Assembly: GCA_964019135.1 (NCBI GenBank)
Contig: OZ025255.1
Location: 9,610,001-9,674,000 of the forward strand
Length of the DNA: 64,000 nt
Source of the DNA: Arenicola marina
Taxonomy: Eukaryota > Annelida > Polychaeta > Arenicolidae
Direction of reading: 5' to 3'
The notes beneath the pieces were generated by a model. It had not been told where the DNA came from, did not search any database, and worked only from the letters and a program-made list of their open reading frames with translations. This document shows, piece by piece, positions 14,901 to 48,999 of the stretch (the first letter of the stretch is position 1; each line of letters begins with the position of its first letter). The translations under genes were made by a program, and so were the position numbers.

Positions 14901-17900
14901 ACGCGTGTCTTTGTTCGGTGTGTAGAGCACTACAATTTTATGTAATAACATATCGGCATATTGCAATAATATTATTGTTGTATATATAGTGTCGTCAGTG
15001 TTTTGTATCTCTTTAGTATCTTTATATATCTTTAGTACTATCAACATCCATTTTATTGTTGGAATAAACTATTCTTAACGCCTTGACGTTCTTTGGCGCA
15101 GGGTCTGTCTGCCGGAGTGCCGAAAGATGTATTCTGTCGATGCTGCAACAAGAAGATGAGGATAGCCACGGACAGCGTCCGGTTCCAACAGCTCACACCC
15201 ACGGAGGAATTAGGTCAGTGCTGGGGTCAACATCGACCAGGTCAGTGCTGGGGTCAGCATGGATTAGGTCAGTGATGGGTCAACGTAGATTAGGTCAGTG
15301 CTGGGGTCAACGTGGATTAGGTCAGTGATGGGTTTACGTGGATTAGGTCGGTGCTGGGGTCAACGTAGATTAGGTCAGTGCTGGGGTCAACGTGGATTAG
15401 GTCAGTGCTGGGTCAACGTAGATTAGGTCAGTGCTGGGTCAACGTAGATTAGGTCAGTGCTGGGGTCAACGTGGATTAGGTCAGTGATTGGTTTACGTGG
15501 ATTAGGTCGGTGCTGGGGTCAACGTGGATTAGGTCAGTGATGGGTCAACGTAGATTAGGTCAGTGCTGGGGTCAACGTGGATTAGGTCAGTGATGGGTTT
15601 ACGTGGATTAGGTCGGTGCTGGGGTCAACGTGGATTAGGTCAGTGATGGGTCAACGTAGATTAGGTCAGTGCTGGGGTCAACGTGGATTAGGTCAATGAT
15701 GGGTCAACGTGGATTAGGTCAGTGATGGGTCAACGTAGATTAGGTCAGTGCTGGGGTCAACGTGGATTAGGTCAGTGATGGGTTTACGTGGATTAGGTCG
15801 GTGCTGGGGTCAACGTAGATTAGGTCAGTGCTGGGGTCAACGTGGATTAGGTCAGTGATGGGGTCAACGTGGATTAGGTCAGTGCTGGGGTCAACGTGGA
15901 TTAGGTCAGTGATGGGTTTACGTGGATTAGGTCGGTGATTGGTTTACGTGGATTAGGTCGGTGCTGGGGTCAACGTGGATTAGGTCAGTGATGGGTCAAC
16001 GTAGATTAGGTCAGTGCTGGGGTCAACGTGGATTAGGTCAGTGATGGGTCAACGTAGGTTAGGTCAGTGCTGGGGTCAACGTGGATTAGGTCAGTGATGG
16101 GTCAACGTAGATTAGGTCAGTGCTGGGGTCAACGTGGATTAGGTCAGTGATGGGTCAACGTAGATTAGGTCAGTGATGGGTCAACGTAGATTAGGTCAGT
16201 GCTGGGGTCAACGTGGATTAGGTCAGTGATGGGTTTACGTGGATTAGGTCGGTGCTGGGGTCAACGTGGATTAGGTCAGTGATGGGTCCACGTGGATTAG
16301 GTCGGTGCTGGGGTCAACATGGATTAGGTCAGTGATGGGGTCAACATGGATAAGATCAGTGCTGGGGTCAACATGGATAAGGTCAGTGCTGGGGTCAACA
16401 TGGATAAGGTCAGTGCTGGGGTCAACATGGATTAGGTCAGTGCTGGGGTCAACATCTATTAGGTCAACATGGATTAGGTCAGTGCTGGAGTCAACGTGGA
16501 TAAGTTAAGTACCAGGCTCCGTTAGGACTGAACATTTTGAGGAAAAATCCATGATCGTAATCTGTGATTCTAAGATCAAAAGAAAGATTAGGTTAGTCAG
16601 TCCCGTCGCTTCGCTTGTTTCCATTTTCTTGAAATAATGGTAATGGACTGAATTTTAATTTCGTGTTTAACGGTTTAACTGCCAGCCTGTACGTCTATGT
16701 CCTGTTATCGGGGGTTATTGGAGGTCTGGCTTCCATACATAATGGTTCTATACATGCTCCCCACTGTTATGACGGTTCGGTTCAATGTTTGTTTGTCCCC
16801 GACAGACGAGAGCGACAGTCGTCGTGTCCAGGTGCAGAAGGTGCGGAAGGTTGCCAAGGACCCTGCCATCCAGTTGGGTCAGCCATTGCCGGACGACGGC
16901 ACGTGTAAACACTACAGGAAGAGCTTCCGGTGGCTCAGGTGGGACTTCCTGTCTGAATACTGACGATGTTTAATGTGAAGTCGTACCGGGATTTAAACTG
17001 TGGTTTAGTTCGGTTAATGCAGAGATGATGTTATGCGATAACGTATAGTCTTTATTCATAAGAGTAGCCTATGAGATACCCTGGGAATTAGTATAAAAGC
17101 TCCACTCTAGCCTTTGAGTGCCTAACGGCACGTGGATCGGAGGTTAGAGCCTCGCTGTGGTCATGTCTGTGTGGTCGCAGGATAAAGATCCCAGGTCTTT
17201 CTTCGCAAAGAGTAGGGGGTTACCCCCGGGGACATGGCTTCACTCTCCCTTCCTTCTCCCATTGACGCGATATGACCAAAAGTGGTTAAAGCGTCCTGAA
17301 TGTACAACCAACCACACTAGCCAGGTGTCGCCTTACGATACTGGGTTTGTCTTCAAAATCCTCTTCCAAGGCCCAGTACATGTATATGAAATGATGTTGT
17401 TTGAGATTGGTTAATGTATGTTGCCTGTCACCCCGCATAATATTAACATTTCGTCCCCCCCCCCCCGTCACAGGTTCCCGTGCTGCGGAAAGGCGTATCC
17501 ATGCGACTGTTGCCATGACGACAACGAAACAGACCATGACATGAAGTATGCTACCCGAATGATCTGTGGCTTCTGTTGTCGCGAACAGGTAGGATGCGTG
17601 TACCCTGGGGACTAGCTGTGTTAGAACAGGTAGGATGCGTGTACCCTGGGGGCGGGCTGTGTTACAACAGGTAGGATGCGTGTACCCTGGGGACTAGCTG
17701 TGTTAGAACAGGTAGGATGCGTGTACCCTGGGGGCGGGCTGTGTTACAACAGGTAGGATGCGTGTACCATGGGGACTAGCTGTGTTAGAACAGGTAGGAT
17801 GCGTGTACCCTGGGGGCGGGCTGTGTTAGAACAGGTAGGATGCGTGTACCATGGGGACTAGCTGTGTTAGAACAGGCAGGATGCGTGTACCATGGGGACT

Positions 17901-23119: not shown

Positions 23120-23159
23120 GCCGTGTGCCGCCCTCTACAGGACGATGGGAACGGCAACA

Positions 23160-23355
23160 CCGCGGGCGCTCGTTGTCAGGACGACGGTAACGCGTGCGCT
23201 TGTTGTCAGGACGACGGTAACACGGGCGCTCGTTGTCAGGACGACGGCCCCGCGGTCACTCCTTGTCAGGACGACGGTAACGCGGTCACTCGTTGTCAGG
23301 ACGACGGTAACGCGGTCACTCGTTGTCAGGACGACGGAACGGCTGTCGGTCGTTG
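23160..23355 (+). repeat. 30-bp array in the CCCH-gene 3' UTR, about 7 copies
   Basis: Units of 30 bp containing CGTTGTCAGGACGACGGTAA begin about 40 bp after the TGA at 23117-23119. They lie in the presumed 3' UTR. Reading frames through the array are open because the unit is ten codons. Confidence 0.9.
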
Positions 23356-23629
23356 CCAGGATTATTATCAAGACCAAGCAACTCATCGGGGATCACATGC
23401 TATCAGTGTAAATAATCATCTTGTGTATGGACATTGTGTAGTATGTATTATATCATGGGCTATATTAGTGCAGCTGTTCAGTGAATAGTGTTCAGTTTGG
23501 GCAAACACTAATACAGGTATTCATTGCAGACTTTTACAAAACACATTTAAAGAAAGCTAGGGTTTGTGGCCCCTGGTCCGCGAACTGCAACGGTAATTTT
23601 TGTTATTTTGGCGTAATATGTAATAAGAA

Positions 23630-23635
23630 AATAAA
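23630..23635 (+). terminator. candidate polyadenylation signal AATAAA (CCCH gene)
   Basis: AATAAA lies 511 bp after the stop codon in AT-rich sequence. It is the first canonical hexamer I noticed downstream on this strand. Use is inferred. Confidence 0.4.
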
Positions 23636-23814
23636 GGTTATTCTATCAAAGAGACTTATCAGTGGTTCATGGTGGTGCTTTCAATATTAGCATTATTATT
23701 GTCACCATAGCTCACGTGTTACTCACGCCAAGCAATCGCTTTCGTCCTCCCAGACATGAAACTAGACCGCACAACTACCCATTAATGGGATTGGGTGTAT
23801 CATACCCCAGATGG

Positions 23815-25874: not shown

Positions 25875-25937
25875 GGCTCTCAGGTGGCCAGAGGACGCGA
25901 TGCGAGCGCTCTAACCCACTGAGCTATCGGGCCGACC
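25875..25937 (-). mobile_element. tRNA-derived SINE head fragment
   Basis: CTCTCAGGTGGCCAGAGGAC followed by GCTCTAACCCACTGAGCTAT is the complement of the A-box head of the local SINE family. The body is absent here. Confidence 0.7.
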
Positions 25938-26917: not shown

Positions 26918-27108
26918 TCAGGCTTTGTGGCCGTTGGTGGCGCTGTACTCTTCCACCTCGGAGTCGCTGTTGAGGTGGTCCAGTTCTCGGTCATTGTCTT
27001 GGGTGCTGAGGCGGTCGAAGCCTTTGGGCCGGTTTAACAACAACTGGCCCAAGTTGAAACGTCGGTTGCGACCGCGGGACGTGTCGGAGAAGAAGCCCCG
27101 CAGCTTAC
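26918..27108 (-). other. PAM: PAM exon 21: cytosolic routing tail
   Basis: 63 residues after the split Gly, ending EVEEYSATNGHKA and stop TGA. RPKGFDRLSTQDND matches the conserved KGFDRLST-containing trafficking tail of vertebrate PAM, and SEVEEYSA matches its SEEEYSA. This supports an integral membrane form routed through the endocytic pathway. Confidence 0.93.
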
Positions 27109-30100
27109 CTGCGTGAGCGATAATAGAGGTAAGTCTATTTGCGAGTTATGTGTGGGAGACGGTGAGTCCTTGGAACGATTACGTGACTTAGGAGGCAGGA
27201 TGAAACGTTAACAGAAGCACATATTTATAACATTACTTGGCTATAACCCTAGCATTCTAAAAACAAATGTGACAGCTAGCTTTGGTAAATGCAAGTTATT
27301 CACAATACAGAACGAAGGACGATGAGCGCCAAAATAGCCCTAGCAGACGACGTACAATACATGGGGCGTGATCGCCCATAGCCCCATAATGTAACCAGAC
27401 GGTATTACAATCATTGGGGTGTTTTTTAAGTTACATTTACAGCTTTGTATGTGCATTATAATTGCTAAACTATTACATACAACAACACAGAAAGACACAG
27501 GGTACAGCATGAGGTCTGTGGCACGTTAACTGTTAAGAGACATGCGTCAAGGAGTTCCCACAAACACAGAACGCCCTCCAACTTTCGATGCGGTTGGTAT
27601 CAACAAGGAACTTGGAAGACAATGGGGAATGTACTATGCCTAGTCACGTGACTTGGGCCCAGATCACCTTTTTAAATGAAGGCGTCCTCTTCGTCCTCCT
27701 CCTCCAAGGTGACCTTGGTGTAACCTTTAGTTTTTTCAGCTACGTGGAGAGGAAACACGACAAGGTGGGATACAACTAAAAGCACTAAAGGATAAATAAC
27801 AAGGTGGGAATAAATAAATAAATGAAGTGGAAGTTTTATGCCACCCTTGTGCACACATACGCCTGACCGCGGAAACGGACAATAGTGTACACATACTCCC
27901 TGGATACGGAACATGATCCATGATCACATCGGGTCGGTAGGTGTGTGAGGGGGGGGGGGGTGGCAGCCACTGCTGTTATGGTTGGTTGGTTGGTTGGTTG
28001 TATATTCAGGCCGCGTTAACCCCTTTTGGTCATATCGGGTCAAGGGAAGAAGAAAGGGAGAGTGGAGCCATCTCCCCGGGGGTAACCCCCTACTCTTTGC
28101 GAAGAAAGACATGGGATCTTTATCCTGCGACCACACAGACATCGCGACAGCGGGGCTCGAACCATCGCCCCAGGTGCCGCTAGGCTCTCAGTTGGCCAGA
28201 GCACTCCATGTGGCCCACAGCGGTTATAGCGTCCTGAATAACCAACCAACCAGGTCTTCACGTCCCCGAGTTTTTTTTTATCATCTTCCTACCCCTTGTC
28301 TGGCCTTTTGGTCCCGCCTCGTTCTAGCGTTCTTTCACATCCCTGAGTCCGTTGACCGATTTAAGTCACGTTTTATGACTTAATCGAGACGCTGAGCGCC
28401 TTAAATCGTCTTAATAATAAGGGCTGAGAGTGTGTGTGGGGCGCGGGGGGGGGGGGGGAGAGGCAAAGTACGCGCACGGCTTTCTCAAATGTGGCACCAA
28501 GGTGTCATAAAAACCCCCACATCGATCAAGGTTTCGACTGCAAGAGTAACGATTACTACACACGCACTGCACAGTGAACACACAAGCTTGAGATATTACA
28601 CGGTCCATCTTCCAAGTTAGGGCCAACGAAAAAGATTATTGTAGTAAATGCATGGTAGGCGTGAACTAGGGTTCGCCCTAACAAGGATGAACGACCGATC
28701 ACACATCGAGGGCAAGAATCTGTACATATATGATGAACAAGGATACGTCAAGCGTTAGTACAACACAATAGGGTATTACAGCCAGTTATTACAACACAAT
28801 AGGGTATTACAGCCATTGTTATTATAACACAATAGGGTATTACAGCCATTGTTAATACAACATAATAGGGTATTACAGCCATTGTTAGTACAACACAATA
28901 GGGTATTACAACCATTGTGAGTAAAACACAATAGGGTATTACAGCCATTGTTAATACAACACAATAGGGTATTACAGCCATTGTTAGTACAACACAATAG
29001 GGTATTACAGCCATTGTGAGTAAAACACAATAGGGTATTACAGCCATTGTTAATACAACACAATAGGGTATTACAGCCATTGTTAGTACAACACAATAGG
29101 GTATTACAGCCATTGTTAATACAACATAATAGGGTATTACAGCCATTGTTAGTACAACACGATAGGGTATCACAACCATTGTGAGTACAACACAATAGGG
29201 TATTACAGCCATTGTTAATACAACACAATAGGGTATTACAGTCATTGTTAGTACAACACAATAGAGTATTACAGCCATTGTTAGTACAACACAATAGGCT
29301 ATTACAACCATTGTTAGAACAACACAATAGGCTATTACAACCATTGTTAGTACAACACAATAGGGTATTACATCCATTGTTAGTACAACACAATGGGGTA
29401 TTACAGCCATTGTTAGTACAACACAATAGGGTATTACAGCCATTGTTAGTACAACACAATAGAGTATTACAGCCATTGTCAATACAGCCAGACAGACACA
29501 CTGCTCATACGGATGTGGGTTCTGATAGGGCAGGGAGAGGGAGAGGGGGAGAGGGGAGGGGGAGGGGGAGAGGGGGGGAGGGGGAAGGGGGAGAGGTGGA
29601 GGGAGAGAGGGGGGAGAGGAGAGAGGGGGAGAGGGAGAGGGGTGGGGGGAGAGGAGAGGGGGAAGGGGGAGGGGGAGAGGGGTGGGGGGAGAGGAGAAGG
29701 GGAAGGGGGAGGGGGAGAGGGGGAAGGGGGAGAGGTGGAGGGGGGAGGGAGGAGAGAGGGGGAGGGGGGAGAGGGGGAGAGGGTGGGAGGGAGGAGAGGT
29801 GGAAGAGAGAGGGGGAGAGGAGAGGACGGGGGTGGGAGGGGGCTAAAGGTAAAAACTTACCACTCTTGCGCAGTCGCAGAAAGACGGTTATAGCGATGAC
29901 GACGATGACCGGGACGATGAGGAGTGCCCCGATGATCATGGAGGCCCCCATGTCGGCCTGCTCCTCCGTCTGCCGCTGTAGCTGCTGCTCCACGGGTCCG
30001 TCCCCCTGGTGGTCCACCGACTCGGGGTGCAGCCCCACCGCCGCCACCGCCACTCGCGCGCCCGCCCCGGCACCCGCCTCCGGCCCTGTCAGCCCGACGC

Positions 30101-33100: not shown

Positions 33101-36100
33101 TGTTTATTCAGTACTTTGGGCACAACGCCCATGGTACATATATACAACCTTCAATACAATATTCAAATAGGTGACATACATGCCTATATGCAAACGTCAG
33201 CTACGGCGAGGCTAGAAATGACTCTATGGAGTTGAATGCTTCGTAAACAAACATGGCTAAGTTGAAAAAGATGTTTTCGTTTTTACTGCCAAATAGTCCT
33301 AAACATTTTCTGAAGCAGGATAGCAAATACATACTTTAGGCTGTCGCTTATCCCGACTTGAAGCATATACTGTACACACCAGAGTAAAATGATATATGTT
33401 GGTGTATCAGGGTCCACATGAAGGCTAAATTGACCCAAACCGGTAAGCAGGATCTGTTGATCTGTAGCTCAACCTGCTAAAGGGAGCCTCGAAGAAGGCA
33501 CCCCTTCTCAAAGAAAAATGGGTGTTTGCACTCAGATTTAACTTAATGTTACGGTCAAATAAAGTAGTCGGGGGCCGTATTCAACATGACCGTGTATTCC
33601 AAGGGGCGACGTGCAAAATGCCGGTTCGTCAAACAATCTCTGAAGCAACGGTCGGTTGTATTCATAATCCTAACAGACGTTTACTTTTAATAATGGCATT
33701 TTCCTTATCCCACGAAAAACGGTTGTTTAGTGGACAGTTTCGGTGTCTTTGCCGAACTTATCTGTCTTAGCGCTTAGAAGAGATTTTTTAGAAGGGTATT
33801 TAGACGGGTACTAATCAAGAGAAGAGCTTTGCTGTTACTGTTTTACTATACATGTATTGCAATAATAAACATAGCAGCAAAAGTTCTCCTTAAGCTGTAC
33901 AGTGTTACAGTCTGCAAAGCATTATCAACATGATAAACTTCACACGAGTAGCGCGAAAAGAGCGCTCTAGATTTGAGGTGAGACAAATATGACAAATATA
34001 AAACATGCACGAAAGACAAGTAGACTTTGGTCCATATGTTGGTGCACGAAGGTGATTTCTGCAGCGAATGGTACGCCTGAGGCACAAAGAGGTAAACTGA
34101 AACAACATGAGAATCAAATCCACCTTGTGACGTAACTTACCTCCAACACTGGTGCTGGCTTCTCCCCATTCCTTCAATATCTTCCCGTCCGCCGAATACT
34201 TCAGAATGCGATGGTTGCAGTAGCTGCGAAAAAACAAGTAAATTTAAAGCTTACGATATTGCACACTCGAAGGTTGAGGTTTTTACTTGTGATATGTATA
34301 CGTCACAGCAGGATACATCGGGTGAGGCTGATATTTCAATTAAAACAAAAAGTTCATTCACTATAGTTTCTCCGATTTTCGCCCAAGACTCGCGACCCTT
34401 ACCCGTCAGTCACGAAGAACTCGCCCGTGCTGAGAGTGGCAACGTCCGTGGGTTTACAGAAGTGCTCGTGGTCGGACCCAGGAACCAGCTTCTTCCCCAG
34501 AGTAAGCAGGGAACCAGTGCCACCGGGACCAAACTTGAAGACCTGTAACGTGAAACGCAAAGTTCGCATGTACGAGTGCATTCCAACGGCTAAGCAGGGA
34601 GGCAAACAGTGTAGGACGCATGCTAATATGAGGCTTCCTTCCATACAAGTATGCAATTGTGCCAGAGCAACCGCGTAAACATAGAATTAATTATAAGGTG
34701 TCGGGTGATGATCTGTGGAAGTTACGTAGATTTGGTAGAAGGGGTGGAGGGGGACTGGGGTAGGGGGTGGACTAACCTGGTGTAAAGCGACATCAGTGAG
34801 CCAGATGTTGTCGCTTTTGTCGATGTGTGGATGTTGCACAGATGAGGAGGGTGTGGAGGGGGAGGCGGTGGAGGGGAGCTGGTGGAGGGGGAGGAGGTGG
34901 AGGGGGAAACGGTGGAGGGGGGGGGGGTAGGGGATGGACTAACCTGGTGTAAAGCGACATCAGTGAGCCAGATGTTGTCGCTCTTGTCGATGTGTGGATG
35001 TTGCACAGATAAGGAGGGTGTGGAGGGGGAGGCGGTGGAGGGGAGGTGGTGGAGGAGGAGGCGGTGGAGGAGAGAGGCGGGGGCGGTGTACTAACCTGGT
35101 GTAAAGCGACATCAGTGAGCCAGATGTTGTCGCTCTTGTCGATGTGCAGACCGTGAGGCATGTAGAACCTAGAACAACACAACCACGTGTCACAGACAAT
35201 AATCAGAAGACAATATCACGTATGGGGCTCTTGCCAACCATACGCTGATGAGTTCAGATCTATTCTACAATTATATTTGCGCAAAACGAATAAGTCACAT
35301 TGTTGTGACACTTGGGCAATTATTAAATATCTTCTTATGTGCTGTGCATCACGATATTAATCACAACTAAAACACGGAACATGAAAAGGCGCTCACTGAT
35401 TCCTTCCCACAATGCAGAGCTCGCTCATGCCAGTAGATGACACCCGCACCAAGGATCCCCTCTACGGCCACAATCCCCGTGTTACGTGTACTTACATGTC
35501 AGCACCCCACTGCTTGATGACCTTGCCATCGCTGCTGAAGGTCACGACTGTGTCCACCTTGATGGGACCCTCTTCAGGGTGTGCAAACTCGTTCTTGACG
35601 TTGAAAGAGCTACAGAAACAAAAAAACAAAAGTTACGACCATAAAAGGAATCAGGAAATTACATATCAACGTATATTCAAATGCATACATTTACAAATCG
35701 TAAGTATATATATATATATATAGCCAATAGACAGAAGTCGAAAGATTTGTTATTATTTTATATTTAAGATTAGTCTATTTAGTTCTTTAATTTATTTAAT
35801 ATTAACGAGATTAGTTTTCGTCGGAAATCTCGTAAAATAAAATAAACTAAGTATTAAAACACAAGTAGAACTACAGATAAACATTATTACGATGAACGTA
35901 TAATGATATAGGGGGAAGAGTCAGATATGGAGAACAGGGACGCAGCAGTTATCAGGCAAAGGTTACTATTTTTCTACACGTACTTGCCGTCCCAGACGCG
36001 AGGCCCGCGGTGAAAGACGTGCACGTTCCCCTTGCTGTCCGTGGCGACTCCCGCCGCCTGACCAAGGTCCAGGTCGTCTGCTTCAGTCAGCTGAGGCCAG

Positions 36101-39100
36101 CCAGTGACCGCGCGGACGCCTACCGAACCCAGACACCCACGCTGTAGCGTTAAACATGTATGCGCTCGGCGAGGCCGGGTTATATGTTAGGCATCCATGA
36201 TATAGGATCACCACCATCTCCACATTAAGGTGGTATTATTTCTCTAAAATATTCAGTGCGATTACAATTATTATTATTAAAGATATTATTTTAAAATATT
36301 TCGTCAACTAAGTCAGACATAATTTATGCATCAGTGTATTTTTGCTTTTTTCGACCCATAACTGGTATTCTTAGCGACCACATTTACTATTTGATGCCTT
36401 AACGAGTACACCGTTTGAAATTAAAAAAAACATGCAAAACTGAAGCTTTCGTACCAACCATTTATAGTTACAGGTGGAATAAATAAAAGACATGGTTACA
36501 TCATTATATCTGGCATACATCTATTAATTCAACTTATATAATACGGCCATGCGATATGAAAACACTGAATGAAATACAAGTTTGAAATTTAACAATATCA
36601 AAGGACATGTACAATGAAACACTTTCAAATACCTGTCAGTAACATAGAATAAAAACAAATCACAAAAATGATATTAACACAATAGAAAATAGAAATTTTA
36701 ATCCCGAAACTCAAAATCAAAGCCACCCGCACAACGATATTAACACAATAGAAAATAGAAATTTTAATCCCGAAACTCAAAATCAAAGGCCACCCGCACA
36801 ACGATTTTAACTGAGTCGCGTACAAGATAAACGAGAAACCCGGCAGCGAGAGATGATCAGAGAAGGCACATACATGTACGACATGCCGAAAGTGGGGTAC
36901 TCACAGACAAGCAATGATAACGTCTGCGAGAGACAAAGTGTGCAATTTCAGAATCAACGCTGGATTGCACAATGGGTCACAAACAAAAGGGAAAATAATT
37001 AGTTAAACTACAAAGGCGAATAGCAATCACAACTGTGGCCATCGGGAGTGTACAATAAGCAAGCGAAGAGACGCCATAGAAATACACAATATTATATTCT
37101 ATGGATTCAGATACACATCTAAAAATCTGGTGGATATCTAAACAAAATCTAGAACAAAATTCAACGATTTTTCGCGAACGTAAAATCAATTTAACTTATC
37201 AGTTATGAACAAAAAATTATTAGAAATGAATTATGAAAACCTTAAGATATGCAATTTTTATATTGCTTTAACCCATACGGCAGTTATAGACCTATTGGTC
37301 AGTTATCAAAGCAGCAAACAATGTTTCGATGAATCGCATGACAACCATATCATCAGCATTACCCCCTCACCATCTTAACAAACGCAGCACCGATTACGAA
37401 ATATTAGCCTTTACCGCGATCGACAAGTCTAACCAAACCTAAAATTGCTAATACTAACTGGCTTGATTGATATAGAAATCGGGTGACGTTTAAATTTTAC
37501 TCATTGATTTCAAAGAGAAAACCAAATAGCTTTTTAATATACATTGTATAGCAATTGATAAATCTTCTTTACAGTCTCAATTATCTTGTTCCACACATTC
37601 GTATCATTATGTGTCAATTCATATATGTAACTGAAATGAACTCAAAACATACCGAAACAAACATCCAACATCCTCGGTTTAGCCACAGTTTCATGTTCCA
37701 GTAATTGCATAAACACACAGCAGAAAACCTAAAACAGATTCATTGATGGTATATCAAAGATACAGAAAACAAAACGGCACAAAATAAAATAAATTAACAC
37801 CGATATCTTAAAACTATTCGGGGGTCGAGCGTTCGCCAGGTGTATCGCGCCGACAGGCAGGCTTAACGCGTGATTGATTACCTTTTTCGGGTGATATAAG
37901 TTTCAGGCAAGCGGTCCTGGTTAAGGGAGTGAACTAATTATGGTATAATATATATTATAATATATAGACCTAGCTATTTGATCTATATGTTTTGGGTGCC
38001 TATAGTTACAGGATCAGCCAATCAGGTGTTTGTGTGCAGCCGGTGCCTGCCCCCACCCTCATCACACCCCACCACCTTACCTACCCAGACACCCGCTATG
38101 GTGACCAATCAGCAATTCATGTGGATTATCTGGCTATTCTCCCCCACTCCTCCCACACGCCCTGCGGCATTCCTGGGCCCGTAAGTTAGGATCGGTCGGG
38201 GCCAAATATTTCGCCCTAGAATAGGATATTAGCATGGAGCGGGGCGACATATTAGGCCCCCGCCGTTCGAACTTACGGGCACTGGTGTCGAAACTGCCCC
38301 TATTAAATGCAACAAAACAACAGTTGGAAATGTAGACTAATTTGAAAACACTACACATAAATCTGTGAAATCATAAAATATAGTCAATTGGAAGTAGAGA
38401 CACTGGCGACGTGCGGACATAGATTTCGTGCGTGGCTTACAACATTACAACATGTAGTTGGAGTGGATACCAGAGGCTGTATTCATGAACCCTGCTTAGC
38501 GCTACGCACATCTACTTAGCGGCAAGTAGAACATTTGGAAACGTCTTTTTGCAAATGCAAGTTGCATTTTTAAAATCATGAAAGCCAAGTGCGTGGCAGC
38601 ATATGAAAAAAGGCCTTTTGTATGTCTTTTTTTAATGTCTAAATGATTATGAATAGCTTCCCTGTACGCGTATTCGTAACCTTGTCGTAACTTACGCGTC
38701 ACGGCTTTTCAAGCTGGTGGCGATGTTATTCATGATCATTATTGTTCTAGCTTTTTTGATAATAATTATTCGCTGAATAATAATAATAATGCTGAAACGA
38801 TACTTTGTAAAGTCTTGCCAAAGGTTCTGTGTAGCCTTAAGCACGTTTGCGTAGTGTTAAGACGGGATGGTGAATACTGGACCCCGGCACTTACTCTTGC
38901 TCTGTGGGAGGAGGGCCGCTGATGCAGATTTGGGCTTGGCGGCCTGCTTCACACTGGTCCCCTGGGGCGTTTCCTTGGCGACCGGGGGGTCGGCCCTTAG
39001 GGTGTCGGCCTCAGATGCAGGTGGCGGGAGAGCGGGTTTGCTGGTGCGGCCAGGCTGTGCGGCGGCGTGGGGTGGCGGACGGGCGCCCCGGGGTGGTTCG

Positions 39101-42100
39101 TTGCGCTCCGGAGTGGCCACCCGCCCCCCCGCACCGCCTCCGGCCCCGCGCCCCCCATCCCCGCGCCCGCCGTCCGGGTCCTGTCGCTGGTCTGACGAGC
39201 CATATCCCTCAGCGTAGTAACCCCGCCCGTTGCCATAGCCACCGCCGGCCCAGGACCTGGCGATCCCCGCGGGGAGACGGCGTCCCACAAGACCCTGCGT
39301 CCCAGACTCGTCTCCGTACTCGTCTTGCTCTCCCGGCGTCGGGTGTCTGTTACGGCTCCTCTGATTGGCTACCTCCTGGTAAAAGTCATCCCGGCTAGAC
39401 GGGTACTGTCCGTAAGGGTCGCTGTATTCGTAGTTATCCGCGTAACCACCACCACCACCACCACCGCCGCCACCACCGGCCATGTCGTCACCTCTACCGC
39501 GGCCGTAAAACCCTCTGAAGTCATACCCGGTCGCTGGAGGGCGCGGCCTCCCCATGCCCCCCTTGGCGAAGTTACGCCGGACGTAGGGACTCATCCTAGA
39601 AGCTGACTGCACGGGAGAAGCGGCCTTTGAGGAGGAGGAGGAAGAGGAGGAGGAGGAGGAGGAGGGGTCATACTTCTTTATAACGTTCTGGCTCTCTGGC
39701 CAGGGATGGCTATGGTAGTCGGGCCAGTCGCCTTTACCTTGCGTATGGTCGTCACCCGCTATGCCCTCCAGGAGGGGGTTGGGCGGCAGGGGGGTATCGG
39801 AGTCAGCGGGAAGCATCTGGGTCAAGCGGGGCACGGCATCATTCATACAAGAGAAGAAGGACTCCCCTTTCTCGGCGTCAGTGTAGTACATCATGTAGAA
39901 GTTACACATCTCGTCATTGTGGGTGGCGCTGTAACAGGTAATAATACATCATGTAGAAGTTACACATCTAGTCATTGTGGGTGGCGCTGTAACAGGTAAT
40001 AATGCATCATGTAGAAGTTACACATCTAGTCATTGTGGGTGGCGCTGTAACAGGTAATAATACATCATGTAGAAGTTACACATCTCGTCATTGTGGATGG
40101 CGCTGTAACAGGTAATAATACGTCATGTAGAAGTTACACATCTCGTCATTGTGGGTGGCGCTGTAACAGGTAATAATACATCATGTAGAAGTTACACATC
40201 TCGTCATTGTGGGTGGCGCTGTAACAGGTAATAATACATCATGTAGAAGTTACACATCTCATCATTGTGGATGGCGCTGTAACAGGTAATAATACATCAT
40301 GTAGAAGTTACACATCTAGTCATTGTGGGTGGCGCTGTAACAGGTAATAATACATCATGTAGAAGTTACACATCTCGTCATTGTGGGTGGCGCTGTAACA
40401 GGTAATAATACATCATGTAGAAGTTACACATCTCGTCATTGTGGGTGGCGCTGTAACAGGTAATAATACATCATGTAGAAGTTACACATCTCGTCATTGT
40501 GGGTGGCGCTGTAACAGGTAATAATACATCATGTAGAAGTTACACATCTCGTCATTGTGGATGGCGCTGTAACAGGTAATAATACATCATGTAGAAGTTA
40601 CACATCTCGTCATTGTGGGTGGCGCTGTAACAGGTAATAATACATCATGTAGAAGTTACACATCTCGTCATTGTGGGTGGCGCTGTAACAGGTAATAATA
40701 CATCACGTACAAGTTACACATCTCGTCATTGTGGGTGGCGCTGTAACAGTTACATCATGTACAAGTTACACATCTCGTCATTGTGGGTGGCGCTGTAACA
40801 GTTAGATCACGTACAAGTTACACATCTCGTCATTGCGAGTGGCGCTGTAACAGTTACATCATGTACTAGTTACACATCTCGTCATTGTGGGTGGCGCTGT
40901 AACAGTTAGATCACGTACAAGTTACACATCTCGTCATTGTGAGTGGCGCTGTAACAGTTACATCATGTACAAGTTACACATCTCGTCATTGTGGGTGGCG
41001 CTGTAACAGTTACATCATGTACAAGTTACACATCTCGTCATTGTGGGTGGCGCTGTAACAGTTAGATCACGTACAAGTTACACATCTCGTCATTGTGGGT
41101 GGCGCTGTAACAGGTAATAATACATCATGTACAAGTTACACATCTCGTCATTGTGGGTGGCGCTGTAACAGGTAATAATACATCAAGTAGAAGTTACACA
41201 TCTCGTCATTGTGGGTGGCGCTGTAACAGTTACATCATGTACAAGTTACACATCTCGTCATTGTGGGTGGCGCTGTAACAGGTAATAATACATCAAGTAG
41301 AAGTTACACATCTCGTCATTGTGGGTGGCGCTGTAACAGTTACATCATGTACACGTTAAACATCTCGTCATTGAGATAATGCCACTGTTCTCTCCCCACA
41401 GAACAGACAAAAAATGCAATCAGCCGGCTATCGCATTTAGAGACGAGGAACACGCTTATTTACTGGTTGTCTCTTCACGAAATCAGGGAACAAGCCCACT
41501 TACCCGATCCCTGTTGCCTTCGCCTGGTGCGAAGCATCGTAGGTACACTCAGCCGCCTGGAAATCAAGGCCAGACTTAAAGCAGCCTACTTACATGCGCC
41601 GTCTTAGTTTTTTTACATTTTAGAATACAGACTAAAAGTTTCTCAAAATTATGATGCACATGATTTATATCTCGTTGAGTGTAAAACAACAATTTCAACA
41701 TAAAACTGCGCGGTTTATTTACATCACGCGCGGACGTCCTAGCGAGTCGCGGTCGACATCACACAGAATACCGAACAGCGAACAGGCGCGGGATATAAAG
41801 CCGGCCACCAACTTCTGCGACGTTGAACAAATTTCTTTCTCTCCAGATAGGCTTTCAGGATTTAAATTCAAGACAAAATATACGTATTTGACATCAAGAA
41901 GAGGTTGGTAATACAAACTAACAGAACATATTACTTTAATGAAATAAACTAATGAAGCCAAAATGTTGGAGACAAACAAATGTCTGAAAAGTAAATGCAC
42001 ACGTACTTATACCGTAACAAGTTTTAAATCTGCGACCTTGTGCAATCTTACATACACAGGCAGATACATTATTACTAAGGAGATGATGCTTACCAGATAG

Positions 42101-45100
42101 TCACCGGGCTTCACTGTAACGCTCTTTTGTACGGGGTAAAACGCCTGTCAAACAAAACGTTGGTGCATGCTATCAGAGTTGTATTGAAAGGCTGGTGGAA
42201 GAGATCGGTCAAACTGAACCAAACTACAGAATCCATACCACATCAACATGATACAACAAACCTACTTACAAGGGTAAAGATATCCATGTATCTAAAATGT
42301 TCTTTAATTTATTTGTCAGAAAAAGCACAGCTGCTAGGTCTTTGATCCACGATAACCTCATATTTTTCCTCGTAGCTTGCCATATTTTCGGTAATCATCA
42401 TTCGTAAGATTGTTAGATATCTCCGGCCATGAATTACATTATATATTAATATTATTATTATTTAAGGGAACTCCATAATTCTGCAGCGTAACATTGGCAC
42501 TCACCTGAGGCCACTGGGGATTTCCTTTACCTATTAGGTTCCAGGTACCATTGTTTTGGTACCCGGAAATAACTTTCCCTGCAAGAAATTAGAACATTTC
42601 GTTACATCACTGGCGAGATAGTATAGCTCAAACAGTTGGTATCACGCCGCAGCAACTTTTTATTAGTTCATATAAAGTACTCTTCTGTGTTTACCCTTTT
42701 ACCATCTCCAATTGTAATGCTTAAATAGTAGGGGTCGGGTACTGGTGAATTCCGTAGCTTCCTCGCAGGGGAACAGGACTTCATAGATGAATACAAACCC
42801 ATGTGCTTTTATACCGAGTTTCTTACTGTTTTTATAAGATTATTCTTATAAGATGAACGTTGACGAAACATTGTATCAATAGCGATTATCTACTGACCTG
42901 GCCTAAGTTATCTATAGTGGTGTCATAACGGCAATTACCTAGTATTGAATTTCAGTGACAATAAATAGACGAAGGCGTTATTTCTGACGAACGAAGTATA
43001 TTTTAACAACATCGGTTGGAAATTTGTCAAGCCGGCATATTCCAGGGTAACTGAAAATCGACAGGGAATGGTTGTCTGGGTTACGCACAGCTCACCTAAT
43101 GAATGTGCATGGACCCGGAAGGCAAATGGATGGATGTCAGTATTCCCGTTATATTTACAGGAAATCTTCGCGTGAATATCTGAAGAAAAAAGTAATCAAG
43201 AGAAAATATAAACTGTTGATAGAAAAATCCACGCGCGCGACGAAAACGGTTATCAAACCACGCCAGCGTATTAAACAAGCAGATTAAATTGAGAATCTAT
43301 CGATGAATGGTTTAAGTGTTTTAGGCCAACCTTGTGACCACATGGGCTACACCGGGATCAGATGAAAGATCTAATGCGCTAGAATTTTTTTTCTCATAAA
43401 AGTGGTAAATAAAAATCTAAAATGCTGGAAAATATCAATTTTACTAGCGAGTTTACATATGTATGAGTTTCTATTCACATTTAAACGTGTAATAAATGGC
43501 GTCACGTTGATCGGGTGCTTACTTGTGGCCATGGGCGGTATCGTGAGTTGGGTGGAGAGCAGGATGTACACGCCAGCAAGGTTCTTCTGTCTGTCAGGGC
43601 GGCAGAAACAAGAGAAAAATGAGGAACAAAAATCGCGAAAGGGTGTACGCAAACGGGTCGTTAAAAGTCGAGACAGACAAAATTCGAGTTAATAATTCGC
43701 GTCTCGTGTTACTCTGAATTATAAATAACATATTGCCATACGACTAAGAGTCAACCATGCCTTTCCTCATTCCACAGGAACCGCAGTCCCGTGAGGGTCA
43801 CAGTGTGTCGCATAAGAAGGAAATCTCCACAAGAATGCTTCACTTTACTGTAATCGTAGCAACAGGAGCCCATGGGTTGAATTGCGGCCATAAATAAGGA
43901 ATAATATCAATCGTTTGTAGGAGTAAGTAGGGCGCTTTAATCAATGTAGACAAAACGCGACAATGAGTCGAGGCACGGTAAAGACAAGCGATGTTTTCGG
44001 GAGCGATCCCCTAGGATTAAGTTAGGGGGAGTAACCCCACAATCTTTACGAAGAAGAACGAAAGTATATTTATCATATCACAAACATTTGCACAGGTGCA
44101 CAATAGCCGAACGCGCTACCTAATAATAACAATAAATGCAAGGTGTCCATTGGTTGGTTCGTTGGATATTCAGGACGTTTTAACCAGTTTTGGTCATTCG
44201 CGTCAATGGGAGAAGGACCGGAAGAGCGGAGCCATGTCCCCGGGGGTAACCCCCTACACTTTGCGAAGAAAGCGACATGCGATCTTTATCCTGCGACCAC
44301 ACAGACATGGCCACAGCGGGGGGGCGAACCACCGATCCACGTGCCGTTAGGCTCTCAGGTGGCCAGAGCACTCCATGCGAGCGCTCTAACCCACTGAGCT
44401 ACCGAGGCGACCCTAGGTGTCCATTGGTATCCTTACCTCTCTCGTGTGATGGAGAGACGTACTCCAGATGTGTCGGGGGGAGTCCCGGCTGCGGTAGCAT
44501 CAAGGCACACAGGGTCAGTACGCAGGGTATGTAGTAAGGGTACATCCTATGTCCACTTAATGTCAAACAGTTGGTGACACGGCCAAACAACTTCAGCTCA
44601 TGTCATGCTCATGTGTTCCCCCGCTTACATTCCTGAGTTATAGTGCCCTAGTTGTAGGGCCAAGTAATATTCTGAGCGAATTTAATCGCCTTCCACTTGA
44701 AATTCAAGAGGAAGGAAAATTACTTAATGGAAAAGTTCAAAAACCAACGTGCTGCTGAGATTTTGTTGGCTGTTTTTTATTGGCTGTTTCGATGAATGCG
44801 TTTATAGTTATTTCATTGAATACAAACTGATTCCTGTTATTGAAACGCATTCTTCTATGTTTACAGTCGCAGATACTGATCCCTCAGATGGTGTGGACGA
44901 CACCTCTGTGGCATTACATAAAACTGGCAATGTCCTCATTGATTCTAATCACGAGTTGTGTCGCATAGAATAAAACATACAGGTCCAGACAAGTCGTAAC
45001 GAATGGCATGGTTCGTTGGTTGGTTGTATATTCAGGACGTTTTAACCACTTTTGGTCATATCGCGTCAATAGGAGAAGGAAGGGAGAGTGGAGCCATGTC

Positions 45101-48100
45101 TCCGGAGAATCGACTGGTATGCCAGGACCTACCAGGGAATGCATTCTTGTAGTGAATCTGGAGTACGAAGTATTTGTATCCGGTCTGCTGACCAACCTGG
45201 AACCCCACATCTGTCGGAAACAAGAACCAGTATCAGAGAGGAGACTCACAAATCGGGGCCAAACAGCTTAGCAAAGAAGCTACATGTATGTACCAAGTCA
45301 TTGTGAACGATAAATCAATCCATTCCCTTGATGACAGGACGTCCTATCATTAACAACGATTCAATAATATTTATAGGATCGTTTTCGGATAATCAGAACT
45401 GTGAAATCAAAGATCATGATCTTTTGCCAGTTGGGACCGATACTGATTCCAATAAAGTATATCATATATATCAGTCTGCATGTATGTTCATCAATCATAG
45501 ACAGAAATAGCACCAAGCCGATAAATATATCCCAAAACATTGTGAGCGCAAAAAAAAAACGCGTAAGTAGATGGTTGGTTGTATATTAAGGACGCTTTAA
45601 GCACTTTTGGTCATATCGCGTCAATGGGAGAAGGAAGGGAGAGTGGAGCCATTTCCCCGGGGGTAACCCCCTACTCTTTGTGAAGAAGGACATGGGATCT
45701 TTCTCCTGAGACCACACAGCCATGGCCACAGCGGGGCTCGAACCATCGACCCACGTGCCGTTAGGCTCTCAGGTGACCAGAGCACTCAATGCGAGCGCTC
45801 TAGCCCAGTGAGCTACCGGGCCGGCCCCAACGCGTAAGTAGAAGACAACGGTCACCTTTGGGCATGCTTGTCGGAGGCGCATTCTTTGCCCAGGCAAAGA
45901 GGATTTTTTCTTGCTTTCGACCCCCGCAGATTGCGCCGCACCGCCTGTAAGTAAACCCATCAAAAAATAAGTCTCTTATTGCCAACCTTAGCAACAACAT
46001 GGCGTAATGGAGACACCACAAACAGCTGACAAATGCATCCCCGGGGATGAAGAGAAATCGATAATTAATATGGTTAATATCCAGATATATTTATAAATAA
46101 ATTGTTAATCTTTATAGTAAGAATGGTCATCGTAATGGCTTCATGCGACATATGCAATAAGAGCGAATCAGCTTACCACACCACAAGGACGTAGTCTGGT
46201 AGGGTAAGTCGCAGGCCACTTACCACGAGGACGTAGTCTGGTAGGTTAAGTCACAGGCCACTTACCACGAGGACGTAGTCTGGTAGGTTAAGTCACAGGC
46301 CACTTACCATGAGGACGGAGTCTGGTAGGGTAAGTCACAGGCCACTTACCATGAGGACGTAGTCTGGTAGGGTAAGTCACAGGCCACTTGCCATGAGGAC
46401 GTAGTCTGGTATGGTAATCACAGACCACTTACCATGAGGACGTAATGTGGTAAGGTAAGTCACAGGCCACTTACCATGAGGACGTAGTCTGGTAGGGTAA
46501 GTCACAGGCCACTTGCCATGAGGACGTAGTCTGGTAGGGTAAGTCACAGGCCACCAACCATGAGGACGTAATGTGGTAGGGTAAGTCGCAGGCCACTTAC
46601 CAAGAGGACGTAGTCTGGTAGGGTAAGTCACAGATCACTTACCACAAGGACGTAATGTGATAGGGTAAGTCGCAGGCCACTTACCATGAGGACGCAGTCA
46701 GGTAGGGCAAGTCGCAGGTCACTTACCACGAGAACGTAGTCAGGTAGGATAAGTCACAGGCCACTTATCATGAGGACGTAATGTGGTAGGGTAAGTCGCA
46801 GGCCACTTACCATGAGGACGTAGTCTGGTAGGGTAAGTCGCAGGCCACTTACCATGAGGACGTACTCTGGTAGGGTAAGTCGCATGCCACTTACCATGAT
46901 GACGTAGTCAGGTAGGGTAAGTCGCAGGCCACTTACTATGAGGACGTAGTCTGGTAGGGTAATCACAGACCACTTGCCATGAGGACGTAGTCTGGTAGGG
47001 TAATCACAGACCACTTACCATGAGGACGTAATGTGGTAGGGTAAGTCGCAGGCCACTTACCATGAGGACGTAGTCTGGTAGGGTAAGTCACAGGCCACTT
47101 GCCATGAGGACGTAGTCTGGTAGGGTAAGTCGCAGGCCACTTACCATGAGGACGTAGTCTGGTAGGGTAAGTCACAGGCCACTTGCCATGAGGACGTAGT
47201 CTGGTAGGGTAAGTCACAGATCACTTACCACAAGGACGTAATGTGATAGGGTAAGTCGCAGGCCACTTACCATGAGGACGTAATGTGGTAGGGTAAGTCA
47301 CAGATCACTTACCACAAGGACGTAATGTGATAGGGTAAGTCGCAGGCCACTTACCATGAGGACGTAATGTGGTAGGGTAAGTCACAGATCACTTACCACA
47401 AGGACGTAATGTGATAGGGTAAGTCGCAGGCCACTTACCATGAGGATGCAGTCAGGTAGGGCAAGTCGCAGGTCACTTACCATGAGAACGTAGTCAGGTA
47501 GGATAAGTCACAGGCCACTTATCATGAGGACGTAATGTGGTAGGGTAAGTCACAGGCCCCTAACCATGAGGACGTAATGTGGTAGGGTAAGTCGCAGGCC
47601 ACTTACCATGAGGACGTACTCTGGTAGGGTAAGTCGCATGCCACTTACCATGATGACGTAGTCAGGTAGGGTAAGTCGCAGGCCACTTACTATGAGGACG
47701 TAGTCTGGTAGGGTAAGTCGCAGGCCACTTACCACGATGACGTAGTCAGGTAGGGTAAGTCGCAGGCCACTTACCATGAGGACGTAGTCTGATGGGGTAA
47801 GTCACAGGCCACTTACCATCAGGACGTAGTCTGGTAGGGTAAGTCGCAGGCCACTTACCATGACGACGTAATGTGGCAGGGTAAGTCACAGGCCACTTAC
47901 CATGAGGACGTAGTCTGATGGGGTAAGTCGCAGGCCACTTACCATGAGGAAGTAGTCTGGTAGGGTAAGTCACAGGCGAACAGCAACATGTGATGGGCCG
48001 TGGAGGCCGATGCTAAAGCCTCGTACTGAGCTGGAAGGGCGGGAAACACATTGTGAAGGCGGGAAGCACATTGTGAGGGCGGGAAGCACATTGTGAAGGC

Positions 48101-48999
48101 GGGAAGCACATTGAGAAGGCGCGCAGCTTACCAAACACATATACAGTCGGCCTGTCATTCTCAGTGACATGCACGTTTCTCTTAAAGTGTACGCGGATTG
48201 AATGCACTTTGACATTAGAATTTCACTAAGCTAGGTGTCACTAACACGAAGATATTATATGACAAGACGTCACCGAAGCTTTGTTACACACAGATATATG
48301 CAAAGTAACGGTTATGTGAAGGCTGCCGTTGGCCTAGATCACGCATATAAAATTAATCCAAAGTGAAGATGTAATGGTGGAAAATACTCACTGATATAGG
48401 ACTCCACATCCGGGGCTTTGTGAGCGGTGCAAAAATATGCATCCTCCTGTGGAAACACCGGAAGTCAATAATGTTATACACCAAAAACTAGTATTTAGTG
48501 GGGTATGTCCCCAGTAACAACGTACAACTTACGGAGTTATGCCATCTACTGAAGTATGGCCCCAGTAACAACCTACTACTTACAGGGGTATCCCATCTAG
48601 TGAAGCCTGACCCCAGTAACAACCCACCATTTACAGGGGATGACATCTACTGAAGTATCTATTGAGATATGGCCCCATCAACAACGTGCAAGTTACAGGG
48701 TAATACTATCTTGTGACGTATGGCCCCAGTAACACTTCCACTGGCCGGATGCTCGCAGCCAATGAAGTATGGTGCCAGTAACAGTGACCTACCACTCGCG
48801 GGGTGATCCCTGGCATGGTAATGTCCATGGTGCCCTCACTGACGTCCGCACTGGCGGTGTCCGGGACGTCCGCTCCATCCGCCCCGACACCCAGGGTGTT
48901 CAGACCCATATCCGGTTCATCTTCGTGGGGGTTAGGGTGACAGGCCATCAGCCCCAGAGACCACAACAAGATGGCCACCCTCAGTGACGTCATCGCCAT
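26918..48999 (-). CDS. PAM: peptidylglycine alpha-amidating monooxygenase, bifunctional (21 exons, 1139 aa)
   Basis: Makes C-terminally amidated peptides in secretory granules: the PHM half hydroxylates the glycine alpha-carbon (copper, ascorbate, O2) and the PAL half cleaves off glyoxylate. Coding exons 5' to 3': 48793-48999, 48392-48446, 47943-48030, 45856-45944, 45133-45210, 44437-44488, 43523-43590, 43096-43179, 42505-42578, 42094-42144, 41504-41556, 38895-39928, 35984-36119, 35496-35609, 35096-35168, 34403-34542, 34141-34223, 32764-32961, 30596-30711, 29861-30296 and 26918-27108. Every junction is GT/AG, the phases agree throughout and the sum is 3420 nt. A signal peptide (MAMTSLRVAILLWSLGLMAC) opens the protein. 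Human PAM is about 973 aa; the excess lies mainly in the exon 12 linker. Introns 3, 11, 15 and 18 contain junction-spanning minisatellites. Confidence 0.95.
27980..28253 (-). mobile_element. tRNA-derived SINE with a tail at both ends (PAM intron 20)
   Basis: Minus-strand copy: GGTTGG-type tail and GTATATTCAGGCCGCG at the left, complete body, B-box complement (GGGGCTCGAACCATC) and AGGCTCTCAGTTGGCCAGAG. Instead of the A-box head, the right end is a plus-oriented tail (TATAGCGTCCTGAATAACC, then AACCAACC). The two ends are therefore inverted repeats of each other. Confidence 0.8.
28755..29490. repeat. 33-bp minisatellite in PAM intron 20, about 22 copies
   Basis: Unit ACAACACAATAGGGTATTAC plus AGCCATTGTTAGT. 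The unit is eleven codons, so three frames stay open for over 240 codons on the minus strand; I reject these as coding. It does not touch a splice junction. Confidence 0.95.
29530..29848. repeat. GA-rich polypurine tract next to the PAM exon 20 donor
   Basis: More than 300 bp of almost pure purine on the plus strand (GGGGAGAGG, GGAGGGG units). It ends about 12 bp from the exon 20 donor (intron start 29860, minus strand), so the transcript is C/U-rich immediately after its 5' splice site. Irregular period; possible triplex-forming sequence. Confidence 0.9.
30712..31345 (-). repeat. about 35-bp array abutting the PAM intron 18 acceptor, about 18 copies
   Basis: On the transcript strand the acceptor of exon 19 is TTTGTTGACAG|GG. 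Upstream units each contain TTTGTTGACAG followed by AGCTGTATG and TTTACCTGACC. The acceptor-like TTGACAG is thus repeated through the array, although the exon bases themselves are not. Units vary in length and composition more than in the other arrays, suggesting age. Confidence 0.85.
31346..32763 (-). repeat. 27-bp minisatellite starting exactly at the PAM intron 18 donor, about 52 copies
   Basis: On the transcript strand exon 18 ends TTCTGTCCCAGCAGCA, and the intron begins GTAAGTG. The array unit is GTAAGTGTGTC plus TTCTGTCCCAGCAGCA, so each copy carries the last 16 coding bases and the donor. Variants include CAGCAGTA and CCTAGCAGCA. The 27-bp unit produces a 480-codon shadow frame. Confidence 0.96.
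32962..34140. other. PAM: PAM intron 17, unique sequence
   Basis: AT-rich intron with no array. 33570-33760 looks like an old interspersed element (GGGGCCGTATTCAACATG near the left end) but I could not define its termini. No exon is supported. Confidence 0.5.
34773..35095 (-). repeat. PAM: two extra copies of the 3' part of PAM exon 15 with donor
   Basis: Sequence from CACATCGACAAGAGCGACAA through GCTTTACACCAG|GTTAGT, the last 54 bases of exon 15 plus its donor, recurs at about 34938-34992 and 34773-34828 with one or two changes. The copies are separated by GGAGG-rich spacers and by a shared TGTGCAACATCCA leader absent from exon 15. The copies lack an upstream AG acceptor, so they are probably decoy donors rather than alternative exons. 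Confidence 0.9.
36670..36802. repeat. 66-bp direct duplication in PAM intron 12
   Basis: GATATTAACACAATAGAAAA to the CACCCGCACAACG end occurs twice in tandem, differing by one base. Confidence 0.9.
38177..38281. mobile_element. possible small MITE with 11-bp terminal inverted repeats
   Basis: GCCCGTAAGTT at the left is mirrored by AACTTACGGGC at the right, about 105 bp apart, with partial complementarity continuing inward (GGTCGGGG against CCCCCGCC). No clear target-site duplication. Confidence 0.35.
38895..39928 (-). other. PAM: PAM exon 12: end of PHM plus long low-complexity linker
   Basis: One 1034-nt exon. Its first 60 codons finish PHM (MCNFYMMYYTDAE, FFSCMNDAVPRLTQMLP). The other roughly 280 residues are a disordered linker: a Ser run encoded by a GAG/GGA-type trinucleotide repeat (39627-39667), a Gly run (39441-39480), Arg/Gly/Tyr-rich segments such as GFYGRGRGDD, then Pro/Ala-rich sequence ending LLPQSKS. 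In vertebrates the PHM-PAL linker is partly optional and cleavable. I see no clear KR-type processing site in the part I checked, but RR and RK pairs occur. Confidence 0.85.
39929..41372 (-). repeat. 58/52-bp minisatellite starting exactly at the PAM intron 11 acceptor, about 25 copies
   Basis: On the transcript strand each proximal unit is TTATTACCTGTTACAG (intron end with AG) followed by the first 42 bases of exon 12 (CGCCACCCACAATGACGAG through ACATGATGTA), a period of 58 bp. From about 40740 onwards a 52-bp variant predominates. Every unit therefore holds a copy of the acceptor and of the codon for copper ligand Met307. At least three units (near 39968, 40028 and 40318) read TAG in place of GAG. 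Confidence 0.97.
44155..44414 (-). mobile_element. full-length tRNA-derived SINE with target-site duplication (PAM intron 6)
   Basis: Complement of a tRNA-like head (GAGCGCTCTAACCCACTGAG), a B-box (GGGCGAACCACCGATCC, mutated), a body with CCGGGGGTAACCCCCTA, and a GGTTCG-type tail. It is flanked by AGGTGTCCATTGGT at 44141-44154 and 44415-44428. It lies 22 nt downstream of the exon 6 donor in the gene's sense. Confidence 0.92.
45014..45105 (-). mobile_element. 5'-truncated tRNA-derived SINE (PAM intron 5)
   Basis: Tail complement GGTTGGTTGTATATTCAGG, then GGTCATATCGCGTCAATAGG and GGAGAGTGGAGCCATGTC, stopping at CTCCGG. Only the 3' third of the element remains. Its truncated end is 27 nt from the exon 5 donor. 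Confidence 0.85.
45572..45829 (-). mobile_element. full-length tRNA-derived SINE with target-site duplication (PAM intron 4)
   Basis: Head complement GCGCTCTAGCCCAGTGAGC with CGGGCCGG, B-box complement GGGGCTCGAACCATC, body, and a short GGTTGG tail. The target-site duplication ACGCGTAAGTAGA is at 45559-45571 and 45830-45842. The head sits 26 nt from the exon 4 donor (intron start 45855), sense to PAM. Confidence 0.92.
46190..47942 (-). repeat. 42-bp minisatellite starting exactly at the PAM intron 3 donor, about 42 copies
   Basis: On the transcript strand exon 3 ends with CCTGTGACTTACCC through CTTCCTCATG, and the intron begins GTAAGTGG. Each array unit is GTAAGTG plus a 35-base copy of that exon end (CAGACTACGTCCTCATG). 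The donor TCATG|GTAAGT is repeated throughout. Variants include GCGACTTACC, CACATTACG and CTGATTACG. It fills most of the 2-kb intron. Confidence 0.97.
48035..48120 (-). repeat. 20-bp array next to the PAM intron 2 acceptor, about 4 copies
   Basis: On the transcript strand, CTTCACAATGTGCTTCCCGC units run up to CCCTTCCAG|CTCAG, supplying the pyrimidine tract of the exon 3 acceptor. Exon bases are not included. Confidence 0.85.
48480..48792 (-). repeat. degenerate repeat of about 58 bp filling PAM intron 1 up to the donor
   Basis: On the transcript strand, GTTACTGGCACCATACTTC just after the exon 1 donor (GTG|GTAGGTC) recurs as GTTACTGGGGCCATAC about five times, several preceded by GTAAGT or GTAGGT. 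It appears to be a decayed donor-anchored array. Confidence 0.65.

Follow-up and report, generated by a model that had tools for sequence, protein, structure and literature searches.

Tandem arrays at splice junctions of two adjacent genes

The window, that is the whole stretch of 64,000 nucleotides that was analysed, contains two adjoining genes, both rich in tandem arrays. One encodes peptidylglycine alpha-amidating monooxygenase (PAM); its exons were located by tblastn with a human PAM sequence. The other carries a CCCH zinc-finger exon. The assignment of this exon and of two plus-strand arrays to one gene (the CCCH gene) follows the predicted gene model of the initial annotation, whose intron numbers were also kept for both genes. 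The gene regions and the arrays at their junctions are listed below, with u as the unit length and TRF for Tandem Repeats Finder.

11896..12957, plus strand: CCCH zinc-finger exon region (Pfam zf-CCCH)
15209..16466, plus strand: array over the CCCH-gene intron 6 donor (TRF; u = 27 (53), about 47 copies)
17583..22222, plus strand: array over the CCCH-gene intron 8 donor (TRF; u = 41, about 113 copies)
26939..48846, minus strand: PAM exon matches (tblastn)
30726..31339, minus strand: array adjoining the PAM intron 18 acceptor, stopping just before the true acceptor (TRF)
31344..32780, minus strand: array over the PAM intron 18 donor (TRF and tblastn; u = 27, about 53 copies)
34743..35146, minus strand: array over the PAM intron 15 donor (TRF and tblastn; u about 152-167, 2-3 copies)
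39887..41373, minus strand: array over the PAM intron 11 acceptor (TRF and tblastn; u = 58, about 27 copies)
46186..47977, minus strand: array over the PAM intron 3 donor (TRF and tblastn; u = 42, about 43 copies)

Six of these arrays span a splice junction, five at donors and one at an acceptor, and Tandem Repeats Finder confirmed them at all six places named in the initial annotation. There the junction had been described as the exact edge of the array. It rather lies inside the first or last unit, together with 5-50 exon bases (k, the number of exon bases within the array). The units measure 27 to about 167 bases. All five donor arrays start in the exon, 5-50 bases 5' of the splice site, and extend into the intron; the end of the exon, the donor and part of the intron recur in each of up to about 113 copies.

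At the CCCH-gene intron 6 donor k was 5, with the last exon base at 15213 and the junction ATTAG/GTCAGT (the slash marks the border), and at the intron 8 donor k was 6 (last exon base 17588, junction GAACAG/GTAGGA). For the PAM donors we obtained k = 35 at intron 3 (last exon base 47943), k = 50 at intron 15 (35097) and k = 17 at intron 18 (32764). The array over the PAM intron 11 acceptor stops 42 bases into the exon (k = 42; first exon base 39928), and the exon fragment NDEMCNFYMMYY recurs upstream of this acceptor (tblastn). At the PAM intron 18 acceptor the adjoining array looks like an older, diverged junction case, in line with the weaker or older status that had been proposed for it.

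Protein homology set the four PAM junctions, and the two CCCH-gene junctions were set by reading frame and splice consensus only. The exon before intron 8 of the CCCH gene has a single open frame across the last 33 codons up to the junction. Two frames are open in the exon before intron 6, and its junction is therefore the least certain of the six. A search for homologous proteins with one PAM exon returned three short fragments, all without a name, and was of no use for the identification.

Further features were observed in the window. Long arrays lie outside both genes at 1-2328 (75 copies) and 53484-56127 (63 copies). A tRNA-like repeat, GGCCCGGTAGCTCA...GAGCGCTC, which may be a SINE, follows a PAM exon at about 45770-45830 (minus strand), and a similar one was found near L033 2050 after a CCT1 exon. 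A match to the DNA glycosylase H2TH domain at 9903-10067 (minus strand) was weak and under the Pfam cut-off.

Host animal

The assembly comprises 867 Mb in 762 contigs. Chordate-type mitochondrial genomes have atp6 before cox3, and lancelets carry GFP genes. On the mitochondrial contig, where genes were named by eye from their translations, the order was nad3-nad2-cox1-cox2-atp8-cox3 on one strand; cox3 starts about 300 bases past the start of atp8, with no atp6 between them. A position of nad3 between nad1 and nad2 and of atp6 between cob and nad5 is described in PMC2639372 as a change limited to annelids and their kin. As judged from this gene order, which fits annelids, the host animal is an annelid. 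The lancelet source that had been assumed at first is ruled out by the mitochondrial order; a genome search for the GFP family also gave 0 matches, a result that does not by itself show absence of the family.

Sampling of genes and calling of junctions

Recurrence was followed in 27 stretches of 10 kb (270 kb), picked by homology to myosin heads and CCT chaperonins with arrays disregarded. This sample covers two protein families in one assembly of one species. Of the myosin matches 62 of 77 were used, namely those inside the fetched stretches, and 32 of 49 chaperonin matches; matches to Aldedh and SNF transporter exons were left outside. Before counting, 13 tblastn hits were dropped (exon-fragment copies within arrays and one duplicate), as were shorter overlapping hits and exon edges without a splice site above threshold. 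Junctions were called from reading frame, phase and splice consensus, and arrays by Tandem Repeats Finder. The extended sample held 170 exons with 259 junctions (128 donors and 131 acceptors). To obtain the number of junctions expected to be straddled with randomly founded units, the summed unit length was divided by the length of array-free sequence and multiplied by the junction count.

Arrays made up 31% of the sampled DNA, and six junction arrays in two genes are therefore less improbable than had been claimed. The array content was 70% in the myosin stretch L015, compared to 1.2% and 1.5% in L009 and L010 (G000:C4:366501-386500), which hold an almost array-free muscle-type myosin gene. 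Several exons of the latter gene occur as repeated alternative copies; three of them had four matched copies apiece.

Straddling of donors and acceptors

Arrays across junctions recurred in these genes chosen regardless of arrays: 18 were found, 14 at donors and 4 at acceptors. In the first sample (94 exons) 12 of 71 donors were straddled versus 2.6 expected, and 3 of 64 acceptors versus 2.4; the 57 donors added afterwards contributed only 2 more cases. In the extended sample, with the expectation calculated tile by tile, 14 of 128 donors were straddled versus 4.6 (4.62) expected (Poisson p = 3e-4; simulated P about 5e-5), and 4 of 131 acceptors versus 4.5 (4.49) expected (p = 0.66). The expectation for the sample as a whole was 5.0 for donors (p = 7e-4) and 5.1 for acceptors (p = 0.75). 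In proportions, 10.9% of the donors were straddled versus about 3.6% at random, and 3.1% of the acceptors versus 3.4%. Donors and acceptors differed with a Fisher p of 0.014, but the difference was not significant among the phase-paired junctions alone (7/82 donors versus 3/82 acceptors, p = 0.33).

In the 27 stretches straddling thus exceeded chance at donors and stood at the chance level at acceptors. The statement of the initial annotation that chance placement was implausible was overstated for the window, although donors are hit about three times as often as at random. The acceptor type had been singled out as noteworthy; it occurs at chance frequency, and both boundary types are already on record in amphioxus globins.

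It could be argued that there is no real excess, and that random founding in an array-rich genome combined with sampling fluctuation or an effect of junction calling produced the donor counts. Besides the 31% coverage, this is favoured by the chaperonin genes, which alone showed no donor excess (2/57 versus 1.5 expected), the myosin genes holding it (12/71 versus 3.1), and by the probabilities given above, which treat junctions as independent while the 14 donor cases come from 11 stretches. All 14 fall in stretches with an array content of 20% or more, and such stretches contain 61 of the 128 donors. The surplus was nevertheless seen under both expectations and in the simulation, and it was present in phase-paired (7 versus 2.6 expected) and unpaired (7 versus 2.1) donors alike. 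We consider it very unlikely that there is no real excess.

With increasing copy number the donor excess climbed, from 14 versus 4.6 for all arrays to 11 versus 2.0 for arrays of at least five copies and 9 versus 1.0 for those of at least ten copies, where acceptors gave 0 versus 1.0. Donor-straddling arrays were also longer than other arrays, with a median of 25 versus 4 copies (p = 0.007). Both results speak for the possibility that working donors are hot spots at which minisatellites arise or grow, for instance through co-transcriptional structures or breaks at the exon-intron boundary. Against such hot spots, donor arrays of at least five copies were no more homogeneous than others (92% versus 90% match, p = 0.72), which gives no indication that they have recently turned over faster.

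Straddled junctions were also compared with the local density of array edges. Within 60 bases of a junction there were 1.80 edges per kb, versus 0.68 per kb at a distance of 150-600 bases. Intron-side edges at most 60 bases from the junction numbered 14 at donors and 14 at acceptors, and this clustering at acceptors too argues against a hot spot specific to donors. Relative to the local edge density, 14 donors were straddled versus 9.2 (p = 0.086) and 4 acceptors versus 9.4 (p of so few 0.042). For arrays of at least ten copies the numbers were 9 versus 2.2 for donors (p = 4e-4) and 0 versus 2.2 for acceptors (p = 0.11). At L018 4794 and L028 3960 (oriented) two arrays, with some 90 and 71 copies, end 4 and 3 bases short of an acceptor and include no exon bases.

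Founding of the arrays

The units of the CCCH-gene intron 6 and intron 8 arrays, two of the six window units, were searched for in the whole genome. Among the best candidates, which were scored, they matched their own locus only. Related copies at many loci, as introner-like elements would have, were thus not seen for these two units. The CCCH-gene arrays do not look like dispersed satellites, and local founding at the exon edge fits this result.

The initial annotation had held that the exon copy must be the founder. In favour of this, copies lying farther from the exon copy were less similar to it in 4 of 13 arrays (p < 0.05), a significant rise being seen in 0 of 13, and the two searched units stayed at their own locus; direct support is nevertheless weak. 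As one consequence, a mechanism initiating duplication at exon edges had been offered. As a general rule this is not supported: the straddling excess concerned donors only, and the exon-side breakpoints had no preferred place in the unit but were evenly spread (KS p = 0.33, 14 arrays). Even breakpoints are what random founding leads one to expect, and they count against the hot spot, too.

A donor-like motif as the trigger is ruled out at the present sample size. Donor-like decoys in introns were straddled at chance on both strands, with 8, 4 and 2 sense decoys observed at thresholds 2, 3 and 4 versus 6.0, 3.1 and 1.5 expected, and 7, 4 and 2 antisense decoys versus 8.0, 4.7 and 2.0. Because intronic decoys showed no excess, it seems to be the use of the donor that matters and not its letters, which again favours the hot-spot explanation. 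Taken with the homogeneity, the breakpoints and the edges at acceptors, however, we judge hot spots as the main cause to be rather unlikely. The broader statement, that working donors act as hot spots and that a considerable fraction of them in array-rich animals (here 14 of the 128 sampled) heads up to dozens of near-identical donors of which the first is reliably taken, we would put forward as a tentative possibility.

The age of an array relative to its intron could be judged at one place. The myosin intron after NPxxE, which carries an array in L013, has a position common, within one base, to L019 and L028, which have no array there. Since these related genes share the intron without the array, the L013 array appears to be younger than its intron.

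Donor sites in the copies and choice of donor

In 22 of 24 arrays the majority of copies had retained the splice dinucleotide; the other two gave 1/2 and 0/1, and six of the 24 rows include no more than two copies. The row with 0/1 belongs to PAM intron 15 and looks like an alignment slip, as the repeat consensus contains the donor. In 20 of 24 arrays GT or AG was retained better than dinucleotides were on average (Wilcoxon p = 0.006). The difference was gone when the donor GT was compared with other GT dinucleotides of its own unit (among 14 comparisons 6 were higher and 7 lower; the lower ones include the invalid row of PAM intron 18, with its boundary misplaced by one base, and three tests gave no value, as comparison sites were missing from one array), and we claim neither purging nor special conservation of copied splice sites. 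In 12 of the 14 validly scored arrays, 69-100% of the copies scored at most one bit below the real donor; the remaining two had 28% and 0%. Multiples of three were not favoured among the unit lengths (4 of 14 donor-straddling arrays versus 55 of 144 others). With GT kept like any other GT and unit lengths that are not frame-keeping, the downstream donors seem neither purged nor tuned.

Rows of intact donors might have been selected, because they could bind U1 snRNP and so shield the intron from premature cleavage or strengthen exon recognition. The many near-equal donors in 12 of 14 arrays and the greater length of donor-straddling arrays agree with this. The donor GT was, however, retained no better than other GT of the same units. 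Furthermore, intronic arrays away from junctions held donor-like motifs at chance on either strand and without sense-strand bias (28 versus 27 of 55), which makes such selection the least supported mechanism. We regard it as improbable.

Which donor is used was approached by homology. For 8 of the 14 straddled donors the next aligned exon lay on the same reference and the junction could be scored; the other 6 were left unscored. The first donor restored the residue count of the reference at 7 of the 8 junctions, 6 exactly and 1 off by one, whereas the second donor would add 6 to 27 residues at those 7 junctions. At the eighth (L023), 25 reference residues were seemingly missing, as the alignment had missed an exon. 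This exon lies just past the array, and its joining to the first donor gives, by eye, the conserved motif SGESGAG-KTE. Protein homology thus suggests that the first donor is probably the one used; the check is partly circular, since agreement in length was itself rewarded when the junctions were called.

Interpretation

Given the observed anatomy of the arrays, their recurrence in unrelated genes, the donor-acceptor asymmetry of the sample, the retained donors and the homology for the first donor, we lean towards the explanation that the arrays are boundary minisatellites of the mirage type that are tolerated past donors and filtered at acceptors. In this scheme tandem duplication would have affected a segment, 12 to about 150 bases long, lying by chance over a working exon-intron junction. 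The new copies, being intronic, would be free to multiply and diverge, and the copy joined to the exon would be held in place by the demands of coding and splicing. The raw material would presumably come from arrays, whose frequency is higher close to either end of an intron than deep within it.

The two sides of an intron would differ in what the splicing machinery meets first. On the donor side the copies would lie past the true site, and the exon-proximal, first-transcribed donor would be used; extra donors would for this reason do little harm, and arrays could reach more than 100 copies. On the acceptor side the copies would precede the true site and be transcribed and scanned first, with the result that arrays would be removed or kept short. 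The few acceptor straddles relative to local density (4 versus 9.4) are what such a filter on acceptor duplication predicts, though this shortage is weak (p = 0.042, and p = 0.11 for arrays of at least ten copies).

A filter set by splicing polarity would cover the asymmetry and part of the donor excess. Tolerance alone cannot yield an excess such as 9 versus 2.2 for arrays of at least ten copies, and a positive factor specific to donors may therefore exist.

Comparison with known systems

As the initial annotation had noted, the class is known from amphioxus. Minisatellites termed 'mirages' have been described there in Adh3, the globins BflGb6 and BflGb9 and troponin C, with an imperfect form in PGBD5, and they occur at 5' as well as 3' boundaries (PMC3087553, PMC3902484). 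Their characteristic trait, a tandem unit that spans exon, splice signal and intron, was found in the six arrays of the window and in the 18 of the sample. A second trait, a splice dinucleotide retained by many copies, was likewise seen. Mirages further leave normal splicing undisturbed, a trait on which the homology for the first donor bears, and differ in length between individuals or haplotypes. The arrays described here differ from the amphioxus mirages in their annelid host, in reaching about 113 copies and in their donor bias; moreover, their frequency was measured in genes picked regardless of arrays.

In the human gene IFI6 (6-16) a minisatellite at the end of an exon has units that supply donors (PMC4526556, citing Turri et al. 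1995), as is the case here. By the same account, splicing in IFI6 uses two downstream units and yields three mRNAs, while homology here favours the first donor. Intron gain through tandem duplication of a segment carrying AGGT, an idea discussed in PMC3087553, likewise involves a duplicated segment that bears splice signals; at the one place compared here (L013), in contrast, the intron appears to be older than its array. An annelid gene with minisatellites is on record in earthworm metallothionein, in which they lie in the first intron, and fourth-exon duplications are missing from the final transcript (PMC12783039). In the passages on these arrays no junction within the unit is mentioned. 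Among the top-ranked open-licence PMC papers listed, judged by titles and the beginnings of abstracts, neither a genome-scale count of boundary arrays nor an annelid case with the junction inside the unit was found.

New here are the annelid host, the frequency, the donor bias and the length of the arrays, with priority not established. The arrays bear on the origin of minisatellites and on intron growth, and also on gene prediction, since each array presents many false exon ends. Of two equal donors, textbooks give preference to the intron-proximal one. Rows of near-equal intact donors amount to a natural experiment on the choice of the 5' splice site, in which an intron-proximal preference would predict that later copies are used; protein homology, by contrast, points to the first donor. 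What was a curiosity of amphioxus has in this way become a measured feature of an annelid genome.
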